Source: a virus. From it: a DNA stretch of 21,337 nt. The stretch covers positions 1 through 21,337 of the IMG/VR virus record IMGVR_UViG_3300025881_000099. The stretch is one strand, 5' to 3'. The position numbers were made by a program, and so were the translations under genes. Of this stretch, positions 3,379-21,337 are shown piece after piece (within the stretch, counting starts at the first letter, position 1; each line of letters begins with the position of its first letter). The notes beneath the pieces are model-generated. The model was not told where the DNA came from and ran no database searches. It saw only the letters and a program-made list of their open reading frames with translations.

Positions 3379-4863
3379 ATGAAAGTAGACAAAATCACAA
3401 TAATAGGTGGTGGTAGTGCAGGTTGGATGTCTGCCGCTTCGCTAATAAACGCATTCCCCGATAAAGAAATAATTGTAGTAGAATCTCCTGATTTTCCTAC
3501 AATTGGTGTTGGTGAAAGCACACTACAATACATTCGACCATGGATGTATAGTCTTGGAATAAAAGACGAAGATTGGATGGACGCCTGTAATGCAACTCAC
3601 AAGATATCAATAAGATTTGAAAACTGGGATGGCAAAGGCGGACACTTTCACTATCCATTTGGTATGCCTCAATATGCAGATGATACTGATTTTGATTATT
3701 ATAATTTCAGTAGATTAGCAGAAGATGTGCCAGACAACGAATGGGCAGAAGTTTTCTTTCCGGCCGCACTTATGGCAGAGAACAATCTTTTAGTTGAAAG
3801 AATGGAAGGTTGGGATTTAAAACAAAACTCTGCTTATCATTTTGATGCGGTCAAGTTTGCACAATGGTTAAAAAATGAATACTGCCTTCCTAGAGGCGTA
3901 AAAATTATTAGTCAAACTGTATATGCGATTGATACTAATAATCAAGGTATCGAAAGAATTCATTGTGATGTTGCTTCTCCTGGTGTGCCTTTTAGAGCTG
4001 ATAATGCACTCACATCTGATTTGTGGATAGATTGTACAGGATTTAAAGCACTATTAATGAATGCTATTGGTAGTAAATTTAGAGATTATGGTGGTGGGTT
4101 AGTAAACGATAGTGCTTGGGTAACACAACTTCCTGAAAGTTATCCAAATCAGTATCATACAAACTGCACTACATTAAACAACGGTTGGGTTTGGAATACA
4201 CCAACTGCAAATAGAACAGGAACAGGATATGTTTTTTCTAGTAGATATGTTGATAATGACCAGGCACTAGAAGAATTTAAAGAACATCTGAATAGAGATG
4301 ATGAGTTACAGTTTAGATTATTAACTTGGAAACATGGCAGACAAGAAAGAATGGCAAAACAAAATGTTGTTGCAATAGGGTTGGCTGCAGGGTTTATAGA
4401 ACCATTAGAGTCTGGTGGGTTATTAACTACACACGAATCACTTAATACGCTTGTCAAGTGCTTACAACGAGGTGTGTTTAATGGTGGTGAGAAGGCTGCA
4501 TTTAATTACGCCATGGGAAATAGATTTGATGATTTTGCAGACTTTGTAGTAATGCACTATCAGTATGCTACAAGAGATGATACACCATATTGGAAAGATG
4601 CACACCTTCATAAACTAAAGAACAATAATGCGGCCGATGAGTTTTATACATCTACACACAAAGAGAGTAGAGTTATTCCGTTCAATGCACACTATAACGC
4701 AATTGCATTTGGACAAGGATTAAATACTGTATCTAATTATGATGTTAAGTTTGAAGAACTGTTTGGTAATCCAGGTATGCTTGAAGATGGTAAAAAGTTT
4801 AGAGAATGGATATTAAAACGACAAGAAGGGTGGTTAAAATATATTAAAGAAAACGCTATATGA
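3379..4863 (+). CDS. Flavin-dependent tryptophan halogenase-like protein
   Basis: A 494-aa homologue of PrnA/RebH-type halogenases, which use FADH2, oxygen and halide to chlorinate or brominate tryptophan or other indoles. Residues 8-20 are the FAD-binding GGGSAGWMSA motif, and GVGEST follows at 43-48. Lys75 in the NATHKISIRF context aligns with the catalytic lysine (PrnA Lys79). GFIEPLES at 338-345 supplies Glu344-Ser345, matching the PrnA Glu346 region. The halogenase-specific WxWxIP motif is WVWNTP at 270-275, with Ile replaced by Thr. Length is close to that of the family (about 500-540 aa). The substrate cannot be told. No good Shine-Dalgarno precedes the ATG. The gene overlaps the next by four bases (ATGA), so a linked function with that oxygenase is likely. 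Related halogenase-like genes are known in marine T4-like phages. Confidence 0.85.
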   Translation: MKVDKITIIGGGSAGWMSAASLINAFPDKEIIVVESPDFPTIGVGESTLQYIRPWMYSLGIKDEDWMDACNATHKISIRFENWDGKGGHFHYPFGMPQYADDTDFDYYNFSRLAEDVPDNEWAEVFFPAALMAENNLLVERMEGWDLKQNSAYHFDAVKFAQWLKNEYCLPRGVKIISQTVYAIDTNNQGIERIHCDVASPGVPFRADNALTSDLWIDCTGFKALLMNAIGSKFRDYGGGLVNDSAWVTQLPESYPNQYHTNCTTLNNGWVWNTPTANRTGTGYVFSSRYVDNDQALEEFKEHLNRDDELQFRLLTWKHGRQERMAKQNVVAIGLAAGFIEPLESGGLLTTHESLNTLVKCLQRGVFNGGEKAAFNYAMGNRFDDFADFVVMHYQYATRDDTPYWKDAHLHKLKNNNAADEFYTSTHKESRVIPFNAHYNAIAFGQGLNTVSNYDVKFEELFGNPGMLEDGKKFREWILKRQEGWLKYIKENAI

Positions 4864-10776: not shown

Positions 10777-10804
10777 GTAAAATTTAAATTATGAAGGAGT
10801 GTAT

Positions 10805-11749
10805 ATGTGGAATGAAGCTAGTTATTCATTACCAATTCTATTCGGTACTGAGCAATCATTAAATCATTTAAAATCACTAAAAGAAATATCCCGACTTAAA
10901 TTTCAACACAATCTTCCTATACAAAATCTATATGGTTCACCGTCAGATGCTGTTTGGAATGGTGGTAGAAATTTAGAAAATGCTGAAATTTGGAGATTTT
11001 TTGAAGGCGATATTGAAAGATATTTTCGATATGCATCCGAACTGTTAGACACCAATTTATTCTTAACTTTCTCAAATCATTTAGCAGGCGACTATTTGAA
11101 TGACGAAGTTTCAAATCTTGTCTTAAATAATCTTATTGCATTAAAAGACAAAAACAACGGGGTTATTATTTCTGATGATAGACTATTAGACTACATAAAA
11201 GGAATAACAGACAACATAACCACGAAAGCATCCATACTTAAAAGCACAGTAGAGAAGCCTCTAAGGAGAAGTGTTGAGTATTACAATGAGTTACTTGCTA
11301 GATATGATATATTGTGTTTACATCCTGATGATAATCAGAATTTAGAATTAATTAGTAAGCTAGATGATGTGTCAAGGGTAGAAATTTTAGTTGATGAAAG
11401 ATGTACTGCTGATTGTAGAGTAAGAGATAAACACTACATATATTTGAATGAATCAAATGTTCCTCATATGAAAGGTGAGGCTATGGAAAAAGAATCAAAC
11501 CTATTAAAGAAGCAATGTTTGAAAAATAGGTATGTCAACGACCCTGTAAAGAATTTTAAGTCGACACTTGCAGTCTTAAAACACGGAGAAATAGAACAAC
11601 TATATAATATAGGGATTCGTAAATTTAAGGCTTCTGGAAGAGGCGATTATATAATGGAAACTATGGCGATTAATAAGTTCTTAGATATGGCAGTTGTAGA
11701 TGAAGATGAGAGAATAGAATTGACATATTCAGGATTTGGTATGGGTTAA
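10805..11749 (+). CDS. U32-peptidase-like (UbiU/V-type) TIM-barrel protein
   Basis: A 314-aa protein. I chose the ATG at 10805 because AAGGAG (10793-10798) is six bases upstream; a GTG at 10799 would touch that site. Features of the peptidase U32 family are visible: YGSPSDAVWNGGR near residue 40, a VLNNLI...GVIISDDRLLDYI segment near 110-135, EILVDERC-x3-C-x2-R-x2-HY with Cys200, Cys204 and His210-Tyr211, a further Cys238, and GIRKFKASGR near residue 275. In bacterial relatives such as UbiU/UbiV, conserved cysteines hold a 4Fe-4S cluster, and the proteins act in O2-independent hydroxylation or RNA modification rather than proteolysis. Whether a cluster forms here is unknown. It lies directly before the carbamoyltransferase, suggesting a joint pathway. 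The family call is from memory of motifs and needs a profile search. Confidence 0.55.
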   Translation: MWNEASYSLPILFGTEQSLNHLKSLKEISRLKFQHNLPIQNLYGSPSDAVWNGGRNLENAEIWRFFEGDIERYFRYASELLDTNLFLTFSNHLAGDYLNDEVSNLVLNNLIALKDKNNGVIISDDRLLDYIKGITDNITTKASILKSTVEKPLRRSVEYYNELLARYDILCLHPDDNQNLELISKLDDVSRVEILVDERCTADCRVRDKHYIYLNESNVPHMKGEAMEKESNLLKKQCLKNRYVNDPVKNFKSTLAVLKHGEIEQLYNIGIRKFKASGRGDYIMETMAINKFLDMAVVDEDERIELTYSGFGMG

Positions 11750-11765
11750 TAATGGAGAATTTGTA

Positions 11766-13409
11766 ATGAGAGTTTTAGGTGTAGCGCCGTTTCATGACAG
11801 CTCAGTTGCTGTGATTGATAATGGTGTATTAGAATATTTTTGTAAAGAAGAAAGACTATCGAGAGTTAAAAGAGATAAGATGCCTTTTAAGGCGATAGCA
11901 GAAGCAGTAAAACACGCTAAAGGTCCTATTGATATGTGTGTTATAGCATCGCCCACAGGGTATGATGGCTCAAATAATGACTTGCAAATGTATCTGGAAA
12001 AAATAACCGATTGTCAAATATTCAAAAGAATGTGTGATAATCATCATAAGGTGCATGCCGCTAACGCTTTTTATAATTCTGGATTTGATAAGGCAATGGT
12101 TTTGATTGCTGACAGAACAGGGTCATATATAGAGAGATTTAGAGAAGCAGAAAGTGTTTATACAGCAGAATATCCTGCTAAGTTTACACCATTATATAAG
12201 AGTTATTTTTTATTGCATAAGGGTATAGACCATGACATAGAGAATGATATATTAGCAGAGTATCTAAAAGAAAAACACAATTGTGATATATCGGCATCTT
12301 CAACAATGGGACTAGTTCAGGCATATGAAAGTGCGACAACTCTAATAGGCCAAGACCCTTTAGAGAATGGTAAGACAATGGGGTTATCTGCTTATGGTGA
12401 TAAAGAAAATATAACACCAGACTTATTTTATGAAAATGTAGTTAATGATTCAAAATTTCTCTTTTGTGGTAGAGGAGAAACCGTTTTAAATGTTAATAAC
12501 AAACATCAATTTGTTAATGAAGTAACACGAGAAAATCATAAACTATATGCTGATTACGCCCTTAGTGTTCAACTACAAACACAAGAAGTTGTTGGCAACT
12601 TAATAGAAAAGTATATTAAAAGAACTGACACTAAGAATGTTTGTATAACAGGGGGATATGGTTTCAATGTAGTTTGTAATCAATATCTGACAGATAGATT
12701 TCCTGATTTAGAGTTTTATTTTGAGCCTTTGGCTGATGATTCTGGAAATTCTATAGGGGCCGCAAATTATGTTTGTAGAAAGGCCACAGAAATATCAGAT
12801 ATAATACCTTTAACACATACATTTTTTAATCATGTTGAACCGACTATACCTTCTGATATAGGAGAACATGTTACAGTAGAACAGATTGCTGAATACTTAA
12901 AAGAAGGTAAGATTATTGCAATGTTTAATGGTCAGGCAGAAGCAGGCCCTCGTTCATTAGGCAATCGTTCTATATTGTTTGATGCAAGAATTAAAAACGG
13001 TAAAGGCATTATTAATAATATAAAACGGAGAGAGTGGTATAGGCCTTTTGCCTGTTCAGTATTAGAAGAAGATGCGAATGAATATTTTGATATGGGAAGA
13101 ACAATGAAATCCCCATTTATGACATCATCTTTTAATATAAGACCAGAATATAAAGATTCTTTCCCAGCAATAACACATGTTGATGGCACTTGTAGAATAC
13201 AGACAGTAGATGAAAGTGTGCCACATTTTAAAGAAATACTTGAAAAATTTAAAGATATTACAGGAACAGGCATGTTGTTAAACACCAGCTTCAACCTGGC
13301 AGGCGAACCTTTAGTAGATTCGTTTGAAGATGCAATAAGAACTTGTAATAGTACAGAGATAGATTTTCTGTGGTTACCAGATAAAGGGGTGATTTTGAAG
13401 TTTTCATAA
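11766..13409 (+). CDS. NodU/CmcH-family carbamoyltransferase
   Basis: A 547-aa O-carbamoyltransferase-like protein. The ATG at 11766 has GGAG eight bases upstream and yields the family's typical start, MRVLGVAPFHDSSVAVIDNG; an in-frame TTG at 11736 is less likely. The N-terminal Kae1-like domain shows FHDSS, EERLSRVKRD, NHHKVHAANAFY (the iron/ATP-site histidines), GKTMGLSAYG, ITGGYGFNVVCNQ and DDSGNSIGAAN. The C-terminal YrdC-like domain shows GPRSLGNRS at 394-402, KRREWYRPFACSVL and LLNTSFNLAGEPLVDS. Known members move a carbamoyl group from carbamoyl phosphate, via carbamoyl-AMP, onto hydroxyls of Nod factors, antibiotics or sugars. The substrate here is unknown; a surface glycan or small molecule is plausible. 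The usual DGxGE after the histidine motif appears as ADRTGS. Similar genes occur in marine T4-like phages. Confidence 0.88.
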   Translation: MRVLGVAPFHDSSVAVIDNGVLEYFCKEERLSRVKRDKMPFKAIAEAVKHAKGPIDMCVIASPTGYDGSNNDLQMYLEKITDCQIFKRMCDNHHKVHAANAFYNSGFDKAMVLIADRTGSYIERFREAESVYTAEYPAKFTPLYKSYFLLHKGIDHDIENDILAEYLKEKHNCDISASSTMGLVQAYESATTLIGQDPLENGKTMGLSAYGDKENITPDLFYENVVNDSKFLFCGRGETVLNVNNKHQFVNEVTRENHKLYADYALSVQLQTQEVVGNLIEKYIKRTDTKNVCITGGYGFNVVCNQYLTDRFPDLEFYFEPLADDSGNSIGAANYVCRKATEISDIIPLTHTFFNHVEPTIPSDIGEHVTVEQIAEYLKEGKIIAMFNGQAEAGPRSLGNRSILFDARIKNGKGIINNIKRREWYRPFACSVLEEDANEYFDMGRTMKSPFMTSSFNIRPEYKDSFPAITHVDGTCRIQTVDESVPHFKEILEKFKDITGTGMLLNTSFNLAGEPLVDSFEDAIRTCNSTEIDFLWLPDKGVILKFS

Positions 13410-15860: not shown

Positions 15861-16667
15861 ATGGCAACCCCAAGTACAAGAGAAACATTAAAACAATACT
15901 GTCTTAGAAACTTAGGTAAACCTGTTATCGACATAAATGTTGATGACGACCAAGTAGAAGATAGAATTGACGAAGCACTACAGTATTTCGCACAGTATCA
16001 TGTTGATGGTGTTGAGAGAATGTATCTAAAGTATCTAGTAACGGCAGACGATATTACTCGTATGACGACTGACGCTTCTGAATCAGTAACAGAAAATTCT
16101 ATAACAACCACATACAAAAGAGCTGATAACTATCTTGTTGTTCCTTCTTCAGTTGTTTCTGTTGTTAATGTGTTTCCATTATCAGACAGAGCAAATCTAA
16201 ACATGTTTGATGTAAGATATCAGTTAAGACTAAATGACTTGTACGATTTCTCATCAACAAGTATTGTTCACTATGAAATGACAATGCGACACTTAGACTT
16301 TCTTGACCACATATTAGTGGGTGAGAAGCCAATGAGATTTAATCAACTCTCAAACAGATTATATATTGATATGGATTGGGGAACTGATATTACTGCTGGC
16401 GAATACTTAATCTTTGAAGTTTATCGCAAAGTAGACCCAGACACATACACAGACCTTTATGATGACATCTATCTAAAAAGATATCTGACTGCACTTATCA
16501 AAAGACAATGGGGTCAAAACTTATCTAAATTCTCAGGCACAGCGATGCTCGGTGGCGTAACGCTTAACGGACCTGAATTGTTTTCTTCTGCGATTGATGA
16601 ACAACAAAGACTTGAAGAAGAAATCAGACTCAATTATGAAGAACCACCACACATGCAACAGGGATAA
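15861..16667 (+). CDS. gp13: gp13 neck (head completion) protein
   Basis: A 268-aa homologue of T4 gp13, which joins gp14 to build the neck connecting the filled head to the tail. The diagnostic N-terminus is visible: TRETLKQYCLRNLGKPVIDINVDDDQVEDRIDEAL, then QYFAQYHVDGVERMY. Further on are FPLSDRANLNMFDVRYQLRLNDLYD and the conserved end region LKRYLTALIKRQWGQNLSKFSG-x-x-x-GGVTLNG. It is somewhat shorter than T4 gp13 (309 aa). It is followed by gp14 and gp15 exactly as in T4, which makes the assignment strong. An AAAGGA ribosome site lies eight bases before the ATG. Confidence 0.9.
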   Translation: MATPSTRETLKQYCLRNLGKPVIDINVDDDQVEDRIDEALQYFAQYHVDGVERMYLKYLVTADDITRMTTDASESVTENSITTTYKRADNYLVVPSSVVSVVNVFPLSDRANLNMFDVRYQLRLNDLYDFSSTSIVHYEMTMRHLDFLDHILVGEKPMRFNQLSNRLYIDMDWGTDITAGEYLIFEVYRKVDPDTYTDLYDDIYLKRYLTALIKRQWGQNLSKFSGTAMLGGVTLNGPELFSSAIDEQQRLEEEIRLNYEEPPHMQQG

Positions 16668-16671
16668 CTAA

Positions 16672-17439
16672 ATGCCAACTAATGTCTATTTCGACACCGG
16701 CACCACTTCAGAACAAAGATTATACGAAGATTTAATAATCGAACAACTGAAGATATATGGTCAGGATGTCTATTATCTACCAAGAAAAATAGCGAACAAA
16801 GACACAATCTTTGGTGAGGACCCTGCGAGCTCGTTTGACGATTCATACATCATTGAAATGTATGTCGATAACTCTGATGGTTACATGGGCGAACAAGAGA
16901 TTATTAAGAAGTTTGGCCTAGAACTCAGAGATGACATTCAGTTTACAGTATCTAAGTTAAGATGGGAAACTCTAGTAGGCAACAATTCAGACTTAGTTAC
17001 AGAACGCCCTCAAGAAGGCGACTTAGTTTACTTCCCGACTACGAAGAAATTCTTTGAGATTCAATTCGTAGAACACGAAGCGCCATTCTATCAACAGAGT
17101 GCGTTGCCAGTTTACAAACTATCTTGTACTACATTTGAGTATAGTTCTGAAAGACTCGATACTGGTATTGCTTCTATTGACCAGACAGAAGATGACTTAT
17201 CAACTGACACAATGCAGTTTCAGTTCTCACTAGAAAACGAAACTGGTTCATTCGTATTAGAATCAAGTATTGGTGCGATTGACTACTTTGTCAATGAGGA
17301 CTTCACTATGGCGACTCAACAACCTGTTGACATGGGACAAATCTTTGAAACACAGGCAGGCACGAATACGGCATCAACGACTGATGACATACTCGACTTT
17401 AGTGAAAGAAATCCATTTGGGGAGGTTGACGACTACTAA
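16672..17439 (+). CDS. gp14: gp14 neck protein
   Basis: A 255-aa protein, nearly the length of T4 gp14 (256 aa). Conserved marks are YGQDVYYLPRKIANKDTIFGEDPASSF (residues 31-56), MYVDNSDGYMGEQEIIKKFGLELRD, EGDLVYFPTTKKFFEIQFVE followed by APFYQQ, and a C-terminal ERNPFGEVDDY. All line up in order with T4 gp14. gp14 and gp13 close the head portal after packaging and form the tail docking surface. It starts four bases after gp13 and its stop overlaps gp15 (TAATG), so the two are coupled. Confidence 0.92.
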   Translation: MPTNVYFDTGTTSEQRLYEDLIIEQLKIYGQDVYYLPRKIANKDTIFGEDPASSFDDSYIIEMYVDNSDGYMGEQEIIKKFGLELRDDIQFTVSKLRWETLVGNNSDLVTERPQEGDLVYFPTTKKFFEIQFVEHEAPFYQQSALPVYKLSCTTFEYSSERLDTGIASIDQTEDDLSTDTMQFQFSLENETGSFVLESSIGAIDYFVNEDFTMATQQPVDMGQIFETQAGTNTASTTDDILDFSERNPFGEVDDY

Positions 17440-18251
17440 TGTTTGGAGAACACTTTTACCACAAACAAATTCGCAATACTGTAATTGCGTTCGGTACGAT
17501 ATTTAATAATATTCATATCAAACGCTTAGATTCTAGCGGGAATCCTTTACAGAATATTAAAGTACCTTTGTCTTACTCGCCAAGGGAAAAGTTTATTGCA
17601 CGACTAGAACAACAAGCGAGTTTAACTGGAACAGATTCAAGTGTGGCTATTACTCTACCTCGTATGTCATTTGAAATCAATGGTTACAGTTATGATGCTT
17701 CTCGAAAGTTAAACAAGAATCAAAAGAGAGGCGTTGTTACAACAAATGCAGACACAACAAAACTAAACACACAATACTCGCCTGTGCCTTATGATGTGAG
17801 TTTTTCGTTAAGTGTGTTTACATCTAATTCAGATGACGGCCTACAGATTGTTGAACAAATACTGCCATATTTTCAACCAGATTACACAGTAACAATGATT
17901 GAAAATTCTACAATGGATACAAAGAGAGATATACCTTTCATATTAGAAAATGTAGGTTATGACGATTCGTATGCAGGTGACTTGACAACGACAAGACGAA
18001 TTGAGTATACTCTAAACTTTACTGCAAAGATATATCTGTATGGTCCAATCAGTACATCTGCTGTTATCAAAACAGTATCAGCAGACTTATATGCTGACTC
18101 ATCTGACCAAAGTCCATCTCGAAGTGAAAGAGTTACAGTTACTCCTAATCCAACAAGTGCTGATAAAGATGACACATACACATATACTACAACATTAGAT
18201 TTCTTTAATGATGGTTTAAACTATGATGAAGAAACGGGTAATGATGTTTAA
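17439..18251 (+). CDS. gp15: gp15 proximal tail sheath stabilisation protein
   Basis: A 270-aa protein matching T4 gp15 (272 aa) in length and place. It begins MFGEHFYHKQIRNTVIAFGTIFNNIHI and has KVPLSYSPREKFIAR (the conserved block near residues 41-55), ITLPRMSFEI and a PYDVSFSLSVFTSNSDDGLQIVEQILPYFQPDYTV segment. gp15 forms a hexameric ring at the head-proximal end of the tail that locks the sheath and tube and binds gp14. The start overlaps the gp14 stop. The next genes in T4 are gp16 and gp17; here a foreign oxygenase gene intervenes. Confidence 0.93.
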   Translation: MFGEHFYHKQIRNTVIAFGTIFNNIHIKRLDSSGNPLQNIKVPLSYSPREKFIARLEQQASLTGTDSSVAITLPRMSFEINGYSYDASRKLNKNQKRGVVTTNADTTKLNTQYSPVPYDVSFSLSVFTSNSDDGLQIVEQILPYFQPDYTVTMIENSTMDTKRDIPFILENVGYDDSYAGDLTTTRRIEYTLNFTAKIYLYGPISTSAVIKTVSADLYADSSDQSPSRSERVTVTPNPTSADKDDTYTYTTTLDFFNDGLNYDEETGNDV

Positions 18252-18270: not shown

Positions 18271-18885
18271 ATGATTGATTATAAAATTATTGACAATGTA
18301 TTAGACCCTGAAATATACTATGATTTAAAAGCATGGATTGAATCAAATACATTTCACTGGTATCATTATGGCGCTGTAACATATCGTGGCGATAGTTCTA
18401 AAAATGTGATAGATTCTAAGTATGGTGTTAGAAAACCTGAAGATTTTAAAGACGAGCGTAAGCATTTAAATTTACCACCAGAATGGCCAATTGAAGATTT
18501 AACAGAAGAAGAATCAGATTATGATTTTATGTTAGGTCATAGAGTCTATGCAGATAATGTAATTCTCACAAACGAGATGACATGGAATAAAATTAGGCCT
18601 ATTATGAATATGCTTAAAATGAAGTCATTAATAAGATGTGGTGTTAATTATTATCCAAAAACACACAAAATACTTAATCATTCATATCATACTGATTTCC
18701 CATTTGAACATAAAGGTGCTTTATTTTACATAAATGATAATGATGGATTAACTATACTAGAAGATGGTACTGAAATTGAGGGTGTTGGAAATAGACTTTT
18801 ATTATTTGATGCAAGTAGACCTCATCATAGTACAACATGCACAAACGCAACAAGAAGATTGAATATTAATTTTAATTATTTTTAA
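18271..18885 (+). CDS. 2OG-Fe(II) oxygenase family protein (second)
   Basis: A 204-aa protein with a clear dioxygenase metal motif. His140-Thr-Asp142 (NHSYHTDFPFEH) and His185 or His186 (SRPHHSTTCT) form the Fe(II) triad. Arg195/Arg196 in ATRRLNINFNYF is the likely 2-oxoglutarate contact. Strands such as GALFYINDNDGLTILEDGTEI and NRLLLFDAS complete the double-stranded beta-helix. Proteins of this type with a terminal RLNINFN motif are common in marine T4-like phages; their targets are mostly unknown. It has an AAAAAGGA ribosome site, and a TTTAAATA late-box-like string lies 16 bases upstream of its ATG. It is an insertion between gp15 and gp16. It is not a copy of the oxygenase at 4860. Confidence 0.78.
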   Translation: MIDYKIIDNVLDPEIYYDLKAWIESNTFHWYHYGAVTYRGDSSKNVIDSKYGVRKPEDFKDERKHLNLPPEWPIEDLTEEESDYDFMLGHRVYADNVILTNEMTWNKIRPIMNMLKMKSLIRCGVNYYPKTHKILNHSYHTDFPFEHKGALFYINDNDGLTILEDGTEIEGVGNRLLLFDASRPHHSTTCTNATRRLNINFNYF

Positions 18886-18888
18886 GAT

Positions 18889-19296
18889 ATGAGTGATATA
18901 GACGATAAACTAAATGAAGTTTTAAATATTGTACCAGAGGTTATAGAACCGACTGAAGTTGCAACAGTAGAAACACAGATTGCAGTTCCTGTAGATAAAG
19001 ATGCAGAGGTCGATTTCGATACAGGCCGTGAGAATCTATATAAGATGCTAGAAAAAGGAAATGATGCAATAGACGGTATACTAGCATTAGCGAAAGAAGG
19101 AGAACATCCTCGTGCGTATGAGGTTGCAGGACAGTTGATAAAAACGGTTGCAGATGTTTCTAAAGATTTGATGGCAATGCAAGAAAAACTCAAGAAACTT
19201 AAAGAAGTGCCCAATACGGGCCCCAAAAGTGTTACTAACGCTTTGTTTGTGGGCTCTACAACCGAATTAACGAAACTATTAAAGGAGAAGAAATAA
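18889..19296 (+). CDS. gp16: gp16 small terminase subunit
   Basis: A 135-aa protein in the position of T4 gp16 and slightly shorter than it (164 aa). Residues 40-85 hold the conserved core seen in marine T4-like relatives: DFDTGRENLYKMLEKGNDAIDGILALAKEGEHPRAYEVAGQLIKTVADVSKDL. A helical linker follows, then the C-terminal VTNALFVGSTTELTKLLKEKK signature. The small subunit forms a ring that recruits DNA and stimulates the gp17 motor. The acidic, low-complexity N-terminus is as expected. Its stop overlaps the formate dehydrogenase start (TAATG), and its last codons carry that gene's AAAGGAG. It is separated from gp17 by two genes, unlike in T4. Confidence 0.9.
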   Translation: MSDIDDKLNEVLNIVPEVIEPTEVATVETQIAVPVDKDAEVDFDTGRENLYKMLEKGNDAIDGILALAKEGEHPRAYEVAGQLIKTVADVSKDLMAMQEKLKKLKEVPNTGPKSVTNALFVGSTTELTKLLKEKK

Positions 19297-20492
19297 TGAA
19301 AGTATTATGCGTTCTATATGATGACCCTAAAGGCGGAATGCCAGAGAGTTATCCTCTAAGTGATTTGCCTAAAATAGACAAATATCCTGACGGCATGACA
19401 TTACCTAGTCCTCAAGGCAGAGATTTTACACCTGGTGAACTATTGGGTTGCGTGTCTGGTGAACTAGGACTTAGAAAGTTTTTAGAAGAAAGAGGTCATT
19501 CATTAGTCGTTACATCTGACAAAGACGGCGAAGGCTGTACGGCAGATAAAGAATTAGTTGATTCAGATATTGTTATCTCTCAACCATTCTTTCCTTACTA
19601 TGTAACGAGAGAGAAAATGGAAAGTGCGCCTCTTTTAAAGATGGCGATTACTGCTGGTATCGGTTCTGACCATGTTGATTTACAGGCTGCTATGGACCAC
19701 AACATTGATGTTGTTGAAGTAACTTATTGTAATTCAAGGTCTGTTGCAGAACATATTGTTATGCAGATTCTAGTCTTAGTAAGAGATTTTACTACTCAAC
19801 ATAATATTGTAAATGAAGGTGGTTGGCATATTGCTGATGCAGTTTCAAGGTCATATGATGTTGAAGGTATGCATGTTGGTACAATTGCGGCTGGCCGTAT
19901 TGGTATTGATATGTTAAGAAAGATGAAACCATTTGATGTACATCTTCACTATTTCGATAAACACAGACTAGGCAATGAAGTAGAAAGAGAATTAGGTTTA
20001 ATCTACCATGATTCAGTAGAATCTTTAGTCGCAGCTTGTGATGTTATTAATATTAGTTGCCCACTACACCCCGAAACAGAACACTTGTTTGATGACGAGA
20101 TGATTGCGAAGTGTAAGAAAGGTGCATACATTATTAATACTGCAAGAGGTAAAATCTGTGATAAAGATGCTATTGCTCGTGCATGTGAGTCGGGTCAACT
20201 AAGTGGATATGCTGGTGATGTCTGGTTCCCACAACCTGCCCCTAATGACCATGTCTGGAGAACAATGCCTCATCACGGAATGACACCACACACATCTGGA
20301 ACTTCATTATCTGCACAGACAAGATATGCAGACGGCGTTAGAGAAATACTAGAATGCTACTTTGCTGGTTTTGATATCAGAGATGAATATCTAATTGTTA
20401 AAGACGGAGACCTTGCTGGTATGGGAGCTCATTCATATACTAAAGGAACTGCAACAGGCGGTTCTGAAGAAGCTGCGGAGTTCAAAAAGTAA
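19296..20492 (+). CDS. fdh: NAD-dependent formate dehydrogenase (full length)
   Basis: A 398-aa D-2-hydroxyacid-dehydrogenase-fold enzyme that oxidises formate to CO2 with NAD+, very like methylotroph FDH (Pseudomonas sp. 101, ~400 aa). It shares its start (KVLCVLYDDP), SGELGLRK, TSDKDG, AITAGIGSDHVDLQ and VTYCNS-x-SVAEH. Residues fall at the same numbers as in the Pseudomonas enzyme: Pro97-Phe98, Ile122, Asn146, Asp221 (NAD preference), Arg284, Asp308, Gln313 and His332. The Rossmann motif is AAGRIG at 198-203. The C-terminal ATGGSEEAAEFKK tail is also kept. I see no truncation or missing residue. It is metal-free, soluble and cytoplasmic. The start overlaps gp16 (TAATG) with AAAGGAG eight bases upstream, and the next gene starts right after its stop. 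It sits in a terminase operon, so expression is probably late. An auxiliary metabolic gene role is inferred. Confidence 0.95.
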   Translation: MKVLCVLYDDPKGGMPESYPLSDLPKIDKYPDGMTLPSPQGRDFTPGELLGCVSGELGLRKFLEERGHSLVVTSDKDGEGCTADKELVDSDIVISQPFFPYYVTREKMESAPLLKMAITAGIGSDHVDLQAAMDHNIDVVEVTYCNSRSVAEHIVMQILVLVRDFTTQHNIVNEGGWHIADAVSRSYDVEGMHVGTIAAGRIGIDMLRKMKPFDVHLHYFDKHRLGNEVERELGLIYHDSVESLVAACDVINISCPLHPETEHLFDDEMIAKCKKGAYIINTARGKICDKDAIARACESGQLSGYAGDVWFPQPAPNDHVWRTMPHHGMTPHTSGTSLSAQTRYADGVREILECYFAGFDIRDEYLIVKDGDLAGMGAHSYTKGTATGGSEEAAEFKK

Positions 20493-21038
20493 ATGCAATA
20501 TTTTAGACCAGGCTTAGAAGAAAGTATTACACTACCGCCTCATCCAGAAAACTCATCTGAGATTGGTGAGGTGGTAAATGCTGTAACAACAAGAACGGCA
20601 GAAGATGTTACATCTATTAGAAATCATGACCATGAACCTTTCTATGCAGTTGAACAGTATTGCAAATCAAAGAATGTTGAGTTTGACCGTAAAGAGATGA
20701 GAGAATTAATTAAACAGGCAACTGACATTATTGGTTACTTCAAAGGTAGTTTTAATCGTGATAGACCAGCTGAAGTTAATTCTTCTATTAATACTTTGCC
20801 GAGCGAAACAAACAAATCAAGGTCTTATCCGAGTGGTCACGCTACTCAGTCAAGATTAGTTGCACGATATATGGCAGATAAGAATCCTGTACATGCAGAA
20901 GAAATATTAAGAGCAGGCAACGAATGTGGTCTAGGAAGAGTCAAGGCAGGATTTCATTATATGTCTGACTATCATGTGGGCAATTTATTAGGTGAGAAGT
21001 TATTTATATTTATGAATCGAGAGAGTGATGGCAGCTAA
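20493..21038 (+). CDS. PAP2-superfamily phosphatase-like protein
   Basis: A 181-aa protein with all three PAP2 acid-phosphatase motifs: Lys84-x6-Arg91-Pro92 (KGSFNRDRP), Pro113-Ser-Gly-His116 (YPSGHATQS) and Arg149-x5-His155-x3-Asp159 (GRVKAGFHYMSD). His155 is the expected nucleophile and His116 the acid. Relatives remove phosphate from lipids, nucleotides or small organic phosphates. It has neither a signal peptide nor transmembrane helices, so it looks like a soluble class-A-like phosphatase rather than a lipid phosphatase. The ATG begins directly after the formate dehydrogenase stop, and its end overlaps the start of gp17 by 11 bases, so it belongs to the same transcript. Substrate and role are unknown; phosphate scavenging or nucleotide handling is possible. 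Confidence 0.82.
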   Translation: MQYFRPGLEESITLPPHPENSSEIGEVVNAVTTRTAEDVTSIRNHDHEPFYAVEQYCKSKNVEFDRKEMRELIKQATDIIGYFKGSFNRDRPAEVNSSINTLPSETNKSRSYPSGHATQSRLVARYMADKNPVHAEEILRAGNECGLGRVKAGFHYMSDYHVGNLLGEKLFIFMNRESDGS

Positions 21039-21337
21039 CCCTAAAGACCAATATCTAGGTAACCCCAATTTAAAAAAAGGTAATACAAAATCAAGGTTTA
21101 CAAAAAAACAAGTTGAAGAAGTTATCGCTTGTTTAGATGACCCAAAATACTTTATTAAAAAATATCTAAAGATTGTAACAATTGATAAAGGTCTTGTGCC
21201 TTTTGATATGTACAATTTTCAAGAAAAAATGGTTGATACATTTCACGAGAATCGTTTTACGATTTGCAAGTTGCCAAGACAGAGTGGAAAATCAACTATC
21301 ATAGTTTCATACCTCTTACATTATGTGTTATTTAATG
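21028..21337 (+). CDS. gp17: gp17 large terminase subunit (3' partial)
   Basis: The first 103 codons of the packaging motor run off the right edge. The translated start MAANPKDQYLGNPNLKKGNTK is typical of marine T4-like gp17. It continues with a DPKYFIKKYLKIV block, then KGLVPFDMYNFQEKMV, FHENRFTICKLPRQSGKST and IVSYLLHYVLFN. PRQSGKST, at about residues 84-91, is the Walker A/P-loop of the ATPase domain; the rest, including Walker B and the nuclease domain, lies outside the window. It starts inside the phosphatase gene, overlapping it by 11 bases, with a weak purine-rich GAGAGAG upstream. gp17 cuts concatemeric DNA and pumps it into the head. Confidence 0.93.
   Translation, partial: MAANPKDQYLGNPNLKKGNTKSRFTKKQVEEVIACLDDPKYFIKKYLKIVTIDKGLVPFDMYNFQEKMVDTFHENRFTICKLPRQSGKSTIIVSYLLHYVLFN

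Follow-up and report, generated by a model that had tools for sequence, protein, structure and literature searches.

Why should a complete gene for a metabolic enzyme lie between the two terminase genes of a T4-like phage, and what might the virus gain from carrying it? This question is raised by a locus in the IMG/VR virus record IMGVR_UViG_3300025881_000099, of which positions 1 to 21,337, the whole stretch of 21,337 nucleotides analysed here, are referred to as the window. An open reading frame on the plus strand (19296-20492), running from ATG to TAA with its frame open throughout, encodes a protein of 398 amino acids that, by family, is a full-length metal-independent, NAD-dependent formate dehydrogenase (FDH) with predicted activity. 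Against the NCBIfam equivalog NF005750, this protein scores 642.3 bits where the cut-off is 329, which places it in the PRK07574 family, while the next-best family, PGDH, reaches 146.4 bits, below its own cut-off of 454, leaving the FDH equivalog as the only one to pass. The score against 2gsd is 641 bits, the solved enzymes align without gaps, residues 2-393 of the protein fall on residues 2-393 of 2nac, and the alignment to FDH as a whole spans residues 2-398. At the superfamily level, the protein matches PF02826 and PF00389 (D-2-hydroxyacid dehydrogenases), its only match in PHROGs is phrog_26092 (2.5e-26), a family of unknown function, and its AlphaFold model is poor, with a mean pLDDT of 65.6 from an input of 28 close sequences.

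An earlier note on this DNA had described the enzyme as full-length and named nine residues in it, namely Pro97, Phe98, Ile122, Asn146, Asp221, Arg284, Asp308, Gln313, and His332, a description that both the family score and the alignment bear out. All nine are invariant when 17 viral copies are aligned with 2gsd and 2go1, and each of the 80 full-length viral copies other than that of the window has all nine, ten partial copies having been left out of both this count and the tree discussed below. Among 90 cellular copies, position 122 is Val in one, position 313 is Glu in one, and Asp221 is retained in 88. Asp221 is taken here to be the residue specifying NAD rather than NADP, the remaining eight residues count as catalytic, and Pro97-Phe98, Asn146, and the pair Gln313-His332 are regarded as typical of FDH.

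The gene is embedded in a series that runs gp13, gp14, gp15, then a phrog_274-matching gene, followed by gp16, FDH, PAP2, and gp17. The upstream part comprises, on the plus strand, a T4 gp13-like head-tail adaptor of the neck (15861-16667; phrog_211, 1.4e-43), a gp14-like neck or head closure protein (16672-17439; PF11649, 2.2e-31; phrog_460, 2.9e-76), a gp15-like tail sheath stabiliser (17439-18251; PF16724, 1.3e-81), and the gp16 terminase small subunit (18889-19296; phrog_445, 1.3e-41), for which the Pfam match is slightly under the cut-off (23.4 against 25). Downstream, on the plus strand too, are a PAP2-superfamily phosphatase (20493-21038; PF01569, 2.2e-7) and the N-terminal part of the gp17 terminase large subunit (21025-21337; phrog_5989, 9.4e-28), which continues past the end of the window. 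The gp16 stop codon (19294-19296) and the ATG of FDH at 19296 overlap as TAATG, the ATG of PAP2 at 20493 directly follows the TAA of FDH, and the end of PAP2, at 21038, falls within gp17, for which the earliest start listed is a GTG at 21025; the overlaps described in the earlier note are thus confirmed in their coordinates. With the window counted, all 19 contigs examined at the gp16/FDH junction have it in identical form, as do all 16 examined at the FDH/PAP2 junction. The phrog_274-matching gene (18271-18885) carries the PHROG label 'DNA endonuclease V', has no match in Pfam, and by eye seems closer to a 2OG-Fe(II) oxygenase.

Within gp16, 8 nt upstream of the ATG of FDH, lies the motif AAGGAG (19282-19287, plus strand), a putative Shine-Dalgarno-like element found at 19 of 19 gp16-FDH junctions. 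The idea that it was made for FDH alone is weakened by its occurrence before PAP2 in contigs devoid of FDH: it is absent there from the four nearest, present in three of the eight farther ones listed, and replaced by AAGGA in three more of those eight. The GC content of FDH (0.395) and its GC3 (0.246) fall within the range of its neighbours (0.29-0.40 and 0.17-0.38, respectively), and therefore the gene is not a compositional outlier. Searches of the window for Rfam families at the gathering threshold and for tRNAs gave no match. Elsewhere in the window, a gene of the tryptophan halogenase family is found at 3379-4863 (PF04820, 338.7 bits), a family also present in the gp16-gp17 gap of HTVC008M, and a carbamoyltransferase gene at 11736-13409 (PF16861, PF02543) adjoins that of a 316-residue protein without a family match (10799-11749). 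Contig L005 is 100% identical to the window in gp13, gp15, the carbamoyltransferase, and the 316-residue protein, 99% in FDH, and 96% in gp14, with lower values in gp16 (87%), PAP2 (86%), and gp17 (92%), a contrast that hints at recombination at the packaging genes.

Judged from its genes, the virus is a T4-like, pelagimyophage-like phage near the Kyanoviridae, as that family is named in the taxonomy of the records. The nearest relatives of gp17, taken from contig L001, and of gp15 are those of Pelagibacter phages, with 68% identity between the gp17 of L001 and that of HTVC008M and 56% between the gp15 of the window and that of Mosig, and for gp17 the phages of OM43 come next. From these relatives, the phage is probably marine.

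The gap between gp16 and gp17 was compared in 69 rows possessing both genes, which were drawn from the best 80 of 595 gp16 relatives together with the FDH loci; it contains PAP2 alone in 46 rows, FDH and PAP2 in 15, a short ORF in seven, and nothing in one. Because the scan covers the best 80 of 595 relatives, these shares lean towards close kin. The 15 rows with FDH and PAP2, among which are repeat windows of L005, L009, and L015, represent 12 distinct contigs besides the window, and the gp16-FDH-PAP2-gp17 order that the earlier note had proposed to look for is accordingly a recurrent one. In the FDH-less contigs L227-L230, gp16 is 93-94% identical to that of the window and directly joins PAP2; for L229 and L230, which lie outside the 69-row table, the gap was inspected by eye, and an HNH-like open frame was also seen after PAP2. 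A gp16 tree built from the DNA of 32 rows places contigs that lack FDH in among contigs that carry it and requires three changes in the presence of FDH; two are forced by well-supported branches, and all are compatible with either gain or loss. Among cultured phages, HTVC008M has a dioxygenase and a tryptophan halogenase in the gap, Mosig a short ORF, and Melnitz an F5/8C protein. These varied contents imply that the site between the terminase subunits is a cargo site of which FDH is one visitor; on the evidence of gene content, it is usually occupied by PAP2 alone, with FDH gained or lost. PAP2 is the commonest gene of this gap in related contigs (best 80 of 595 gp16 relatives), its motifs KX6RP, PSGH, and RX5HX3D are complete in 15 of the 16 copies from FDH contigs, the sixteenth being truncated, and among 50,697 phage records it has two weak matches only.

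The enzyme is not confined to this site. The IMG/VR search for FDH yielded 73 loci, 20 of which have neck, terminase, or PAP2 genes of the window lineage beside the match, and a relative is encoded in 112 of 175 candidate stretches, of which 80 were kept. In total, 91 viral contigs, the window included, carry this FDH, a count from which L073 (a 46-residue match) was dropped and in which repeat windows of one contig were merged and some near-copies remain. A T4-type hallmark cluster is present in the same locus in 73 of the 91, the other 18, several of them short, being without one. At least six neighbourhoods can be distinguished, each neighbour cluster being named from one tested member: gp16/PAP2/gp17; UvdE with a clamp loader; a DnaB helicase with dCMP deaminase; gp32; an Rz-like spanin; and IscU-FDH-NrdB, with NrdA and often ThyX upstream. 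An IscU/SufU scaffold gene occurs within 3 kb of FDH in 16 of the 91 loci (L192-L204 except L201; L023, L025, L027, L071), a proximity seen even though FDH presumably needs no iron-sulphur cluster. Among the 50,697 phage records, no match to FDH reaches 60% identity; 33 records match below that level, the best at 44%, and were excluded by judgement as likely bacterial DNA. With its gp13-gp17 flanks and its recurrence, the gene lies in genuine phage DNA and is a candidate auxiliary metabolic gene.

Its sequences also bear on how the gene has been maintained and where it came from. In the window lineage, the median dN/dS of FDH is 0.053 (16 sequences; 114 of 120 pairs, dS > 0.05), compared with 0.108 for PAP2 (40 of 45 pairs) and 0.099 for gp15 (35 of 36 pairs); on the contigs used for PAP2 and gp15, the values for FDH are 0.034 and 0.060. 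These ratios indicate that FDH, a host-type metabolic gene, is under purifying selection in this lineage. The protein search and tree with bacterial enzymes that the earlier note had called for place the viral copies in a clade shared with SAR86 and SAR11. In a tree of 71 representatives, whose bootstrap is not fully settled, the FDHs of phages, SAR86, Pelagibacteraceae, and one other gammaproteobacterial source (UBA6724) form a single clade (100/100), which a long branch separates from the rest of the sample, nine further cellular rows and two outgroup enzymes. The clade of the window (100/99) is made up of 29 viral rows and four from SAR86. Of the remaining viral rows, four group with Pelagibacteraceae (100/98) and ten constitute a viral clade of their own (100/99). 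On this tree the viral label changes four times, three of the changes being forced, and these may represent entries into phages or returns to cells; a single clade of all 43 viral rows is rejected (p-AU 0.00015) by a test chosen after the tree had been seen, with the viral/cellular label fixed beforehand. Since the branching inside the window's clade is poorly resolved, transfer between SAR86 and phages may have run either way.

The nearest cellular FDHs are those of SAR86, with up to 88% identity to the window, followed by those of Pelagibacteraceae, with up to 82%. At E <= 1e-120, FDH is found in 66 of 107 SAR86-family genomes and 162 of 397 Pelagibacteraceae genomes, and at E <= 1e-100 in 6 of 274 and 6 of 289 genomes of the wider classes, two centre genomes counted in. 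Six of the 24 gammaproteobacterial loci (L075-L078, L081, L082) have a formate-tetrahydrofolate ligase gene, complete in length, that ends 16-35 bp upstream of FDH, and a relative of the dimethylsulphoniopropionate (DMSP) demethylase at most about 4.4 kb downstream (410.5 bits against a cut-off of 410 in L075); the tree rows representing these six loci fall inside the window's clade (100/99). Within this SAR86 one-carbon cluster, an S-(hydroxymethyl)glutathione dehydrogenase (FrmA) gene adjoins FDH at full length in L075 and L076 and as a 54-residue piece in L081, and an MTHFR-like gene appears as a weak match far under its cut-off in L075 and at half length in L081. One-carbon neighbours are absent from the stretch examined at the other 18 of the 24 gammaproteobacterial loci and at all 56 Pelagibacteraceae loci. 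Around FDH in the latter, 49 of 56 loci have an HPP-like gene no more than 1.5 kb away and 49 have an MsrA-like gene, both recognised by eye, and 44 have a SufU-like gene about 0.55 kb upstream, SufU scoring 53.6 bits, below the cut-off of 92.5. The SAR11 strains considered in the relevant part of a 2011 study carry fdhF/fdsB/fdhD and molybdenum-cofactor genes; there, strain HTCC1062 gained ATP from methanol and TMAO, for which tetrahydrofolate-linked oxidation was the proposed route, and added formate gave no rise in ATP, a result that the authors attribute to uptake (PMC3160333).

FDH is nearest to that of SAR86 and points to it as a possible host; gp17 and gp15 are nearest to those of Pelagibacter phages. 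The gp17 of the window lineage has no match in 107 SAR86-family genomes and no close match in 397 Pelagibacteraceae genomes, where a single hit shows 31% identity. SAR86 has previously been proposed, from an IscU gene, as the host of a T4-like phage, in a paper stating, in the part concerned, that no SAR86 virus had been isolated as of 2017 (PMC5332604).

Taken together, the gene is probably an auxiliary metabolic gene that finishes the one-carbon oxidation of the host and supplies NADH during infection, with the activity of its product predicted from family and active site. FDH of the metal-independent kind is not known to require molybdenum, an iron-sulphur cluster, or a partner subunit, making it a portable one-gene upgrade. 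The phage would produce a working single-polypeptide NAD+-dependent enzyme, translated with the packaging genes through coupling to gp16, which during infection would convert formate to CO2 and NADH. In hosts of the SAR86 or SAR11 kind, the formate would come, via formate-tetrahydrofolate ligase, from tetrahydrofolate-linked oxidation of methyl groups supplied by DMSP, similar osmolytes, or formaldehyde, and its removal could pull the pathway forward, free tetrahydrofolate, and provide NADH for respiration while phage particles are assembled. The host with one-carbon metabolism suggested in the earlier note agrees with the SAR86 and Pelagibacteraceae kinship and the SAR86 one-carbon cluster, consistency that falls short of proof. 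Counted against the one-carbon reading are the SAR86-family and Pelagibacteraceae genomes that already have an NAD FDH (66 of 107 and 162 of 397), the lack of a match of at least 60% in the phage records, the lack of a close terminase match in the genomes of these two families, the formate result with HTCC1062, and the loci without one-carbon neighbours. A bolder version, offered tentatively and regarded as doubtful, would have T4-like phages keeping FDH in movement between SAR86 (Gammaproteobacteria) and SAR11 (Alphaproteobacteria), two abundant but unrelated groups of ocean bacteria, the FDH of the SAR86 cluster derived from phages, and phages running the methyl oxidation of their hosts as an energy supply for infection.

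An assembly chimera of a bacterial FDH and a phage contig might be suspected from bacterial copies up to 88% identical, but contigs from separate metagenome records share identical junctions, and gp16 and PAP2 are cleanly joined in the nearest FDH-less contigs; since both junctions are identical in every contig examined, the locus is no chimera, the chance of one being negligible, and the earlier note was right to see real phage DNA rather than assembly noise. The prospect that the protein acts on another 2-hydroxyacid instead of formate is very slim: its superfamily (PF02826, PF00389) would allow it, whereas the FDH equivalog alone is above its cut-off, the FDH alignment covers residues 2-398, and the presumed FDH-typical residues Pro97-Phe98, Asn146, and Gln313-His332 are invariant in viral copies. 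It is improbable, too, that an intact host gene is carried by chance, with little benefit, and kept only briefly at the cargo site. The differing cargo of relatives (PAP2 alone, the halogenase and dioxygenase of HTVC008M, the F5/8C protein of Melnitz) and the nesting of FDH-less contigs among FDH-bearing ones fit such a passenger, but purifying selection, an active site kept in 80 of 80 copies, the occurrence in at least six neighbourhoods, and at least three forced viral/cellular changes on the tree do not.

Two further proposals accept an active enzyme and assign it another purpose. The idea in the earlier note that FDH disposes of formate set free by peptide deformylase, at a late stage when protein synthesis is heavy, gained nothing from the comparison and is decidedly improbable: 12 of 20 large FDH contigs encode the deformylase, and two of three FDH-less phages (Mosig and Melnitz, not HTVC008M) have it as well, so its presence does not discriminate, and one formate per peptide is judged small relative to one-carbon oxidation. 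Another unlikely proposal is that FDH serves mainly dNTP synthesis, in a module of redox and one-carbon functions that also includes ribonucleotide reductase (RNR), ThyX, and an iron-sulphur scaffold, where it would provide reducing power or tune the folate one-carbon pool used for thymidylate. Among the 13 loci L192-L204, IscU and NrdB enclose FDH in 12, and NrdA is found upstream in 11 (families tested on L203), and within 3 kb of FDH in the 91 loci there are 14 NrdB, 16 IscU/SufU, 12 NrdA, and five ThyX genes (clusters named from one tested member); NrdB is also three genes upstream of FDH in L025, and L042, elsewhere in the FDH tree, has RNR genes nearby by eye. Most of the RNR-adjacent loci, however, belong to one clade and hence represent few independent events, the product of FDH is NADH whereas RNR recycling presumably uses NADPH, FDH in the window lineage is located among packaging genes, and NrdB was found in only four of 12 FDH contigs searched, all possible fragments. 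If the enzyme is active, the final step of one-carbon oxidation, an energy route of cells like SAR11, is one that marine phages seize with a single enzyme needing only NAD+, and infection becomes linked to the fate as CO2 of DMSP and other methylated compounds. The gene also lends itself to testing, as its cargo site is defined and siblings without it occur naturally.

In comparison with systems already described, the earlier note overstated the novelty of the gene, which occurs in at least six phage neighbourhoods; a formate dehydrogenase was moreover reported in 2020, in the passage concerned, from a deep-water group of pelagimyophages (PMC7029224), and the novelty of a phage FDH is therefore moderate. 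Those viruses are HTVC008M-like myophages with a formate dehydrogenase, as here, but the passage refers to FDH-H, a molybdenum enzyme, and raises the idea of a proton gradient, in contrast to the metal-independent FDH of the window, and the enzyme class, site, recurrence, and host kinship given here are not part of it. The relevant parts of two other papers concern subunits of other formate dehydrogenases (PMC8953757, PMC4022391), and none of the open-literature matches listed describes a phage FDH of the metal-independent type, the recurrence of such a gene, or its kinship to SAR86 and SAR11. The viral 'formate dehydrogenase' fwdH of an anaerobic digester involves a similar idea of NADH and one-carbon benefit, with another gene (K00204) and another habitat (PMC13394424). 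Phages of Lake Baikal methylotrophs likewise carry a gene of one-carbon oxidation, a methanol dehydrogenase, which is a different enzyme catalysing the first oxidation step in freshwater, and FDH is not mentioned in the portion concerned (PMC7678222). The Pelagibacter phage HTVC008M and other Kyanoviridae have in common with the window the gp13-gp14-gp15-gp16 order and cargo between gp16 and gp17, the cargo of HTVC008M being a dioxygenase and a tryptophan halogenase, with no FDH match in its record. The SAR86 FTHFS-FDH-DmdA cluster (L075, L076, L078, L081) encodes FDHs 85-87% identical to that of the window and in the same clade (100/99), but there the gene belongs to a chromosomal one-carbon cluster, whereas the phage FDH stands alone between gp16 and PAP2. 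The bacterial enzymes of the Moraxella type (2gsd) and Pseudomonas type (2go1/2nac) match the window FDH in length, in gap-free alignment, and in catalytic and NAD-site residues, with 68% (2gsd) and 66% (2go1) identity, and, unlike them, the viral gene sits in a T4-like packaging cluster.
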